DNA of 64,000 nt from Nitratiruptor sp. (GTDB lineage: Bacteria > Campylobacterota > Campylobacteria > Campylobacterales > Nitratiruptoraceae). The notes under the pieces are model-generated. The model made no database searches. It was given only the letters and a program-made list of their open reading frames with translations, and had not been told where the DNA came from. Each line of letters starts with the position of its first letter. Positions within the stretch are counted from its first letter, which is position 1. Location of the stretch: contig PUXW01000006.1 in the NCBI GenBank assembly GCA_009659925.1, positions 62,001 to 126,000 of the forward strand, in the 5' to 3' direction. This document shows positions 36,549-38,774 of this stretch, piece after piece. A program made the position numbers and the translations under genes.

Positions 36549-37313
36549 ATGATTCGTGGTATCTTGCTGGATATCGGCGGCGTCCTCTATGAAGGGGATC
36601 AACCGATCCCAGGAGCAGTCCAAGCCATCGACGAACTGCGCCGCTCCTACCGATTGCGCTTCCTCTCCAATACCAGCCGTATCCCACCCCAAGAGCTCCT
36701 TCGTAAGCTAGAATCCATGGGCTTTTCTCTGGCCCAAGAGGAGCTCTTCACCGCCTTGAGGGCTGCCGCCAACTTTTTAAAAAGCCAGGGAGCCCGGGCC
36801 TATGTGGTGGCGACCGAGGAGGCTCGAGCCTATTTGGCAGAGCAGTTCCCTCCCGCTTCGGTAGAGCGCTTCGTCCTCGTGTGCGATGCCTATACCAACT
36901 TCACCTACGAGTGGCTCAATGAGGCCTTTCGAAGACTTGAGGCGGGACATGGATTTCTAGCCACCAATGTAAACCGCTACTTCAAGGATCGGGATGGCCA
37001 CTTGAGCCTCGATGCTGGGGGGTTTGTGCGTTGCCTCGAGTATGCCAGTGGAAAGATAGCCAAGGTCGTGGGGAAGCCCAATTGTACCTTTTTCCAGTTG
37101 GCTATCGAGAGTATGGGATTCAAGCCACACCAGGTGGTGATGGTTGGAGATGACATCGAATCGGATATCCTTGGAGCCAAGGCCTGTTGGCTCAAGACCG
37201 TCCTGGTTCGAACAGGCAAATTCAAAGAGGGGGATCTGCTCAAGGCCACTCCGGACCTGATCATCGACGATATCACCCAGCTCCCCAGGCGGATTGGGGA
37301 GCTGGAGGGGTAG
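36549..37313 (+). CDS. LHPP-like HAD phosphatase
   Basis: 254 residues, class IIA HAD fold. The nucleophile motif is LLDIGGVLYEGD (Asp8); LSNTSR (about 39-44), VVGKP (Lys176) and MVGDDIESDILGA (Asp201, 202, 206) follow. The order and wording (RYFKDRDG, CLEYASG, VRTGKF near the end) resemble human LHPP, a phospholysine/phosphohistidine/pyrophosphate phosphatase with DISGVLYD. As there, the usual second Asp of DxD is lost, here to Gly10. Substrate unknown. It begins directly after cmoB. Confidence 0.85.
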   Translation: MIRGILLDIGGVLYEGDQPIPGAVQAIDELRRSYRLRFLSNTSRIPPQELLRKLESMGFSLAQEELFTALRAAANFLKSQGARAYVVATEEARAYLAEQFPPASVERFVLVCDAYTNFTYEWLNEAFRRLEAGHGFLATNVNRYFKDRDGHLSLDAGGFVRCLEYASGKIAKVVGKPNCTFFQLAIESMGFKPHQVVMVGDDIESDILGAKACWLKTVLVRTGKFKEGDLLKATPDLIIDDITQLPRRIGELEG

Positions 37314-37877
37314 CTACTTCTTATCGAAGTGGTAGATCGTATGTTTGCTGGCCCGCTCTCCCTCCTCGTAGACGATGTAGGAGGCTTTGAGGTGGTTGTA
37401 GTCGTCGGAGAGCTCCAGGATGATGTGGTGGACATGGGGCTCGTCGCTATCACACACCTCGCTGCGATCCTCGTCGCAGTCGAAGATCAGCCGGGTCTTG
37501 GTGCTCTCCTTGGTGTTGAAGATGAAGCTGGGTTGGTTCTGCTTGGCACAATAGTGGGTGGCAAGGAGCTGGTTGCACTCCTTGAAGTCGTCGCAGTGGT
37601 ACATGGTGACCATGTGGCGGATGGTTCCGGGCAAGAGCTCCTCTTTGAGGGAAGAGCCCCGGCCAATGACCTCATACTCCATCGCCGTCTTGTCGGTTCC
37701 AAGGAGCCGTTTGACCGCTGGATGGTTGTGGGCTCCCGTGGTATCCTTCTGCTGGCTGGCTGGAGAGAGCTTCCACTCCCCAGGGAGGACCTTGACCATG
37801 TGATCGTAAGCCTCTTTGGGAGTCATCTGGGCAAAGAGCGTCAGCGCCATGAGAGAGATGATCGAGAGCTTCTTCAA
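37314..37877 (-). CDS. Secreted protein of unknown function, probably FNR/CRP-regulated
   Basis: 187 residues: a short signal peptide (MKKLSIISLMALTLFA), then a soluble region with at least five Cys (YHCDDFKEC, THYC, FDCDEDRSEVC) and an acidic-His stretch DSDEPHVHHI. The Cys are likely disulfide-bonded in the periplasm. I do not recognise the fold; a lipocalin-like beta architecture is possible. The TTG at 37877 is chosen because AAGGAGG stands just upstream. A CRP/FNR-type site lies 50 bp upstream of the start. Confidence 0.75.
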   Translation of the reverse strand: MKKLSIISLMALTLFAQMTPKEAYDHMVKVLPGEWKLSPASQQKDTTGAHNHPAVKRLLGTDKTAMEYEVIGRGSSLKEELLPGTIRHMVTMYHCDDFKECNQLLATHYCAKQNQPSFIFNTKESTKTRLIFDCDEDRSEVCDSDEPHVHHIILELSDDYNHLKASYIVYEEGERASKHTIYHFDKK

Positions 37878-37898
37878 GTGGACCTCCTTTTTGTTTGG

Positions 37899-37939
37899 AT
37901 TGTAGCGTAAAAAATTGGCCAAAATTATGATCTAGATCA
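37899..37939 (-). promoter_or_regulatory. Putative class II CRP/FNR-type promoter
   Basis: The palindrome TGATCTAGATCA (37928-37939), extended to ATGATctagATCAA, matches the CRP/FNR consensus TTGAT-N4-ATCAA with one mismatch. On the minus strand a TACAAT -10 lies at 37904 to 37899. Placing +1 seven bases on (about 37892) puts the palindrome centre at about -41.5, the position of activator sites in class II promoters. The TTG start of the secreted protein is at 37877. Confidence 0.55.
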
Positions 37940-37964
37940 AGAGTTCGATAAGCTCCCCTTATCC

Positions 37965-38774
37965 TCAAGTATGGATCAGCTTCTGGGTGATCCGACCATC
38001 GGCGATGGTTACCAGCCGCATCGGGTAGCGATCGGGAGCGAGGGCGTTCTTGAAAGCCCTGGTGGTGATACAGCGCACATGGCCGATCCGGCTCGATGGA
38101 TCATCAACATGGATGTGGCCCGAGAGGGTCAGGATGAGGTTGGGATAGGTGAAGAGCTCCCGTTGGACCTCGTCGCTATTGTTGAGGACATACTTGTGGA
38201 TGTTCTCGGGATCGCTGCTGTGCCAGAAGTTGAGGAAGGGGTGGTGGTCGAGGATAATAGTCGGTTTGTCGAACTGGAGCATCTTCTTGGCGAAGGCGAT
38301 GCTCTCGGGTGAGAAGCGTCCATTATCGTGGCCGTCTATGCAGCTGTCGATACCCAAAACCATGACCCCTTTGTGAACGACCATCCAGTCCCGCCCTACC
38401 ACCAACATGTTGGGGGTGGCAAAAAGGTCGAGAAAGGTCGGGCCATCGATTCCCCTCCCCTTGGGATTGGCCTCCTTGTTACCCCGGACACAGTAAGCTG
38501 GCATACGCAGCTGGGAGATGATCTGGCGGAAGAGGCGGGCATCCTCCCCATTGGCGTCGTTGTTGAAGTTGTCCCCTCCAAAGAGGACGAAATCGACTTC
38601 GGGATACTTGAAGTTGATGGAGCGTACCAAGAGCTTGAGGGCCTCGATGCTCTCTGGCTCTTGTAAATCGAGGTGGCTGTCGGTGACGTGGAGGAAACGT
38701 ACAGGCTCTCCTCCAGCCCACACAGGAAGGGTGGCGGCTCCAAGGGCCACTTTGAGAAAGTCGCGTCGCTCCAT
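37965..38774 (-). CDS. Tat-exported calcineurin-like metallophosphoesterase
   Basis: 269 residues. The N-terminus MERRDFLKVALGAATLPVWA carries the twin-arginine motif RRDFLK, so the folded enzyme should be exported. Metal motifs: HVTDSHLD (Asp32, His34), FGGDNFNND, RGNKE, LDHHPF and LSGHIHVDD. These are the five blocks of calcineurin-like phosphoesterases. The substrate may be a phosphate ester in the periplasm. The ATG at 38774 has AAAGGAGT upstream. It lies 10 bp after the MBL gene. Confidence 0.88.
   Translation of the reverse strand: MERRDFLKVALGAATLPVWAGGEPVRFLHVTDSHLDLQEPESIEALKLLVRSINFKYPEVDFVLFGGDNFNNDANGEDARLFRQIISQLRMPAYCVRGNKEANPKGRGIDGPTFLDLFATPNMLVVGRDWMVVHKGVMVLGIDSCIDGHDNGRFSPESIAFAKKMLQFDKPTIILDHHPFLNFWHSSDPENIHKYVLNNSDEVQRELFTYPNLILTLSGHIHVDDPSSRIGHVRCITTRAFKNALAPDRYPMRLVTIADGRITQKLIHT

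Follow-up and report, generated by a model that had tools for sequence, protein, structure and literature searches.

The locus and its predicted promoter

The window, i.e. the whole 64-kb stretch of DNA that was analysed (G000:C17:62001-126000, from a genome of 1.44 Mb), harbours a gene for an exported protein, preceded by a candidate operator and a -10 element (Table 1). Its upstream neighbour (37965-38774) has the same orientation, and its downstream neighbour (36549-37313) is convergent with it, so that a promoter directly in front of the exported-protein gene would serve this single gene.

Table 1. Features of the exported-protein gene and its upstream region (positions within the window)
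Feature	Position	Strand	Remarks
Dnr/Fnr-type operator (candidate), TTGATCTAGATCAT	37927..37940	minus	12-bp palindrome core TGATCTAGATCA at 37928-37939; centre -41.5
-10 element TACAAT	37899..37904	minus	22 bp from operator
Predicted transcription start (+1)	37892	minus	Inferred from the -10 position; 5' leader about 15 nt
Shine-Dalgarno AGGAGG	37883..37888	minus	Precedes the TTG start; read from the sequence
Exported-protein gene, 187 aa	37314..37877	minus	TTG start 37877-37875; predicted as a beta barrel of ten strands; five Cys, all invariant

A first-pass annotation of the region had described a perfect 12-bp palindrome of the form TTGAT-N4-ATCAA, centred about 41.5 bp from the start predicted from the TACAAT box. 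The palindrome is indeed perfect, but the 14-mer read on the minus strand (37940-37927) is one base away from that form. The distance was confirmed, as the 22-bp gap and a -10 box at -12 to -7 place the operator centre at -41.5. The operator thereby occupies the usual place of a -35 element, as in class II promoters, and a search of positions 37300-38050 found no sigma-70 -35/-10 pair near TACAAT.

Frequency of the palindrome and its spacing

Counted alone, the palindrome occurs at chance level. In the 64-kb window TTGATNNNNATCAA with at most two mismatches was found 19 times versus 20.4 expected, and TTGAYNNNNRTCAW once versus 0.69 expected. Rarity of the palindrome was therefore rejected as evidence, since a motif at chance frequency proves nothing by itself. 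However, TTGAYNNNNRTCAW followed after 21-24 bp by TANNNT was found once where only 0.01 matches are expected, which supports the earlier claim that this spacing is unlikely to have arisen by chance. Extending the search for the palindrome to the whole genome, the check proposed together with that claim, gave 13 matches to the palindrome with a -10 box at 21-24 bp versus none for the reversed pattern. The corresponding numbers were 15 versus 1 in G013, 8 versus 1 in G014 and 22 versus 0 in G024. When the gap was left free between 8 and 37 bp (30 gaps), 27 of the 40 matches in the four genomes had a gap of 22 or 23 bp, and so did 24 of 37 when the promoters of the exported-protein gene were left out; these genomes are related, so the matches are not independent, and some palindromes are counted on both strands. 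A binomial test, which assumes independence, is for these reasons no more than a guide, but the matches clearly cluster at the distance typical of class II promoters.

Conservation at orthologues

The same arrangement is found upstream of three orthologues, as TTGACATGGATCAT 23 bp from TACAAT in G014, TTGATTTAAATCAT 22 bp from TATACT in G013 and TTGACCTGAGTCAA 23 bp from TATAAT in G024. The upstream neighbour of the gene differs in G013. In G024, which belongs to another family, the gene is located about 13.8 kb downstream of nosZ, and the stretch between them encodes NosL, an ABC-2 (NosY-like) protein and further permeases. A shared neighbourhood thus does not explain the shared promoter in these two genomes.

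A site of the same form is absent at 12 other loci of the family (G001-G006, G008, G009, G011, G016, G017 and G020), and among 53 wider homologues it is not enriched (4 observed versus 2.4 expected at one mismatch or less). The idea that all homologues keep the site was therefore rejected, as it was present only in G013, G014 and G024. Since 12 loci of the family lack the site, the genus as a whole does not share this control, and regulation from such a site is, as far as the sequences tell, a trait of some lineages and not of the gene family.

It may be argued that the palindrome and TACAAT are chance neighbours, and that a constitutive or other promoter drives the gene. Both the expectation of 0.69 palindromes per window and the absence of the site from most orthologues in the genus would fit this explanation. 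The rarity of the spaced arrangement, the lack of reversed matches in the genome, the recurrence in front of three orthologues, of which two have another upstream neighbour, and the lack of another sigma-70 promoter in positions 37300-38050 all speak against it, and we consider it very improbable.

The regulon

By position, 12 of the 13 matches in the genome are located just upstream of a gene and on the correct strand; the remaining match (C18:4538) is a palindrome read in reverse. Class II sites precede napA, the nor operon followed by nirS, and a gene of the nosB region, i.e. the gene after nosZ. Others are found in front of a siroheme decarboxylase gene and a divergent siroheme-biosynthesis gene (heme d1 genes), an Opr-type porin, an FmdE-like protein (family match just below the cut-off), the Rieske/bc1 operon and an Mrp/NUBPL ATPase. 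A further site precedes a gene for a small protein, located in front of a 412-residue membrane protein that appears NnrS-like by eye, and another a COX1-family subunit with a 199-residue partner (L101, G000:C18 2250-4497, minus strand). Family searches at this COX1-family locus returned COX1 only; an oxidase and a gNOR-like NO reductase are both conceivable identities.

Some of these loci deserve comment. At the Mrp/NUBPL iron-sulfur ATPase (L099, G000:C13:62721-62762) the longest open frame and the class II site overlap, so if this promoter is real the protein would be translated from an inner ATG. The NnrS-like protein (L095, G000:C4:43643-44881, minus strand) had no match in Pfam or NCBIfam. 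In G014 another promoter (G014:C21:40528-40569) carries a palindrome identical to the one described here, TTGATCTAGATCAA, with a gap of 22 bp to TACAAT; this promoter is probably that of the small gene in front of the NnrS-like membrane protein.

The same box is thus found before nir, nor, nos and nap genes. Judged by these targets and by the candidate regulator described below, this is a regulon of the Dnr/Nss type (nitrogen oxides), and not one of cAMP-CRP or an Fe-S FNR.

Direction of control

In the related Nitrosophilus labii the transcription starts of napA, norE and nosB are preceded by exact TTGA-N6-TCAA sites that begin 48-49 nt upstream (PMC11539149), which places the site centres at about -41.5, the same class II position as here. 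The same study reports that the Crp/Fnr genes of this organism correlate negatively with nosZ, so the direction of control could differ between promoters, and a regulator might repress the exported-protein gene from its site or alternate between repression and activation. Such repression of the exported-protein gene is very improbable in our view, given that a site at -41.5 in a promoter lacking a -35 element has the geometry of activation, and that in Nitrosophilus labii the sites overlapping the start belong to nosZ and accessory nos genes, as opposed to the exact upstream sites of napA, norE and nosB.

The candidate regulator

The first-pass annotation had implied a switch by an FNR/CRP-family regulator, and such a regulator is encoded in the genome. 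Two Crp-type proteins were found, and only one of them (G000:C4:32473-33108, beside norCB) has the Fnr/Dnr recognition helix ETLSR. Its gene is flanked by the nor operon and a porin gene and has a class II-type site in its own upstream region; this site lies between the regulator gene and the nor operon. The recognition helix, TPETLSRIISKF (E--SR), is kept in the orthologues, and the best match in the PDB is DNR of P. aeruginosa (3dkw, E 6e-13, 52 bits). Its 212 residues include no Cys, and without Cys it would hold no Fe-S cluster, which excludes an Fe-S FNR for this protein.

The second Crp-type protein (L020, G000:C11, about 5.7-6.3 kb, minus strand) is encoded near genes resembling succinate dehydrogenase/fumarate reductase. 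We rejected it as the reader of the site, as its helix, GTVRHVVNRHIQEL, is devoid of the E--SR residues.

A reading of the site by some other Crp/Fnr protein, whether cAMP-CRP or an FNR that senses oxygen with an Fe-S cluster, is very improbable: FNR boxes have the same consensus and the DNR motif resembles TTGATnnnnATCAA (PMC1274295), but of the two Crp-type proteins found the one with E--SR has no Cys and the other has no E--SR, and Campylobacterota are without FNR orthologues according to a review (PMC6682613). For cAMP-CRP one would expect TGTGA half-sites and an RE---R helix. Here the half-sites are TTGAT and ATCAT and the helix is PETLSR, a combination of TTGA half-sites with ETLSR that argues against cAMP-CRP.

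The proposed switch thus gains support from a regulator with the right helix and from the box at denitrification promoters and at three orthologues. Oxygen, nitric oxide and a cAMP-type signal had been suggested; of these NO is likely, while oxygen sensed by an Fe-S FNR and cAMP do not agree with the lack of Cys or with the helix and half-sites, respectively.

Proposed mechanism

The site, its spacing, the regulon, the regulator and the recurrence in three other genomes are read from sequence, and from these we infer binding, activation, the signal and a role in denitrification. Very probably this is an activated promoter of class II, which has the site as its operator, belongs to a Dnr/Nss-type Crp/Fnr regulon and switches the gene at 37314-37877. 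A nitrogen-oxide signal, most likely NO, would cause the regulator whose gene adjoins norCB to bind TTGATCTAGATCAT as a dimer. Positioned at -41.5, in the usual place of a -35 element, the dimer would recruit sigma-70 polymerase to TACAAT and thereby switch on this single gene. The exported beta-barrel protein would then be co-produced with the Nap, Nir, Nor and Nos enzymes.

A nitrogen oxide is likely to be the signal of this promoter. It is the best guess because of the Nss-type regulators of Nitrosophilus and Wolinella: Wolinella NssB and NssC respond to NO and N2O (PMC6682613), and Nitrosophilus labii has two regulators similar to Wolinella NssA and NssB, encoded beside nap and nor (PMC11539149).

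The exported protein

The protein has a signal peptide, by eye. The earlier description as Cys-rich is generous for five Cys in 187 residues, yet none of the five varies among 28 homologues. The invariant residues include H93, C94, C100, H107, C109, C133 and C141 (numbered from the first Lys, which is residue 2). No family match was found in Pfam or NCBIfam, and structure-sequence searches were likewise empty. From the 28 sequences the prediction (pLDDT 90.0) was one barrel with about ten strands, whereas eight sequences gave a poor prediction (pLDDT 55.5). Foldseek returned calycin-like matches for the predicted barrel, including retinoic-acid-binding proteins; none was below E 0.001, and the best was to RsfG (7qh3, E 2e-3). 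Identity as a nitrobindin, considered in view of the link to NO, was not adopted, as Rv2717c (2fr2) matched only at E 0.33. L155, which had been listed as a distant homologue, was discarded since the frame in which it reads does not resemble that of a relative.

The protein family occurs in Campylobacterota records of Nitratiruptor, Sulfurovum, Sulfurimonas and Sulfuricurvum. Among the 100 genomes searched, nosZ is present in 16 of 16 genomes with the gene versus 25 of 84 without it, an association confounded by phylogeny and incomplete genomes. Within the bacterial family the numbers are 15 of 15 versus 3 of 7, a difference that partly comes from incomplete genomes. A role of the exported protein in denitrification is plausible from these sequence data. 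More tentatively, and with less than even confidence, we suggest that the barrel is an unrecognised denitrification component of Campylobacterota, and that two separate lineages have placed it under Dnr/Nss control. It may, for example, reside in the periplasm, bind metal, heme or a nitrogen oxide via the invariant His and Cys, and serve NosZ, Nir or Nor.

Comparison with known systems

The predicted protein resembles calycin-type barrels (lipocalin, FABP and the nitrobindin-like Rv2717c) in being a ten-stranded single-domain barrel of similar size. It differs in having its own sequence family and five invariant Cys, with no match below E 0.001.

The regulon shares with that of the FNR-like, NO-responsive Dnr of Pseudomonas a box resembling TTGAT-N4-ATCAA and nir, nor and nos targets, as well as a regulator of Crp/Fnr fold with a PET-SR helix, for which DNR is the best PDB match. 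On the other hand, the regulator described here is from Campylobacterota, its overall similarity to DNR is weak (52 bits), and sensing of NO by heme is only putative. The box is also found here before nap, bc1 and the exported-protein gene.

Like the NssA, NssB and NssC proteins of Wolinella succinogenes and their homologues in Nitrosophilus labii, it is a Crp/Fnr regulator encoded beside such a cluster (nap or nor in those organisms). In contrast to those organisms, only one E--SR regulator was found here, located beside nor. The excerpted accounts of Nss regulation in Wolinella and Nitrosophilus (PMC11539149, PMC6682613) do not mention the exported-protein gene.

The kind of system is known; what is new is the exported protein within the regulon. 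The palindrome in front of its gene is of the same type as those before the nitrate- and nitrous-oxide-respiration genes of this vent bacterium. From this single palindrome, a putative regulon comprising one Crp/Fnr regulator, about a dozen class II promoters (nap, nir, nor, nos, bc1) and one conserved exported protein can be delineated, which would link an unnamed family of exported proteins to nitrate and N2O respiration in a group whose NosZ is of the Sec type (clade II).
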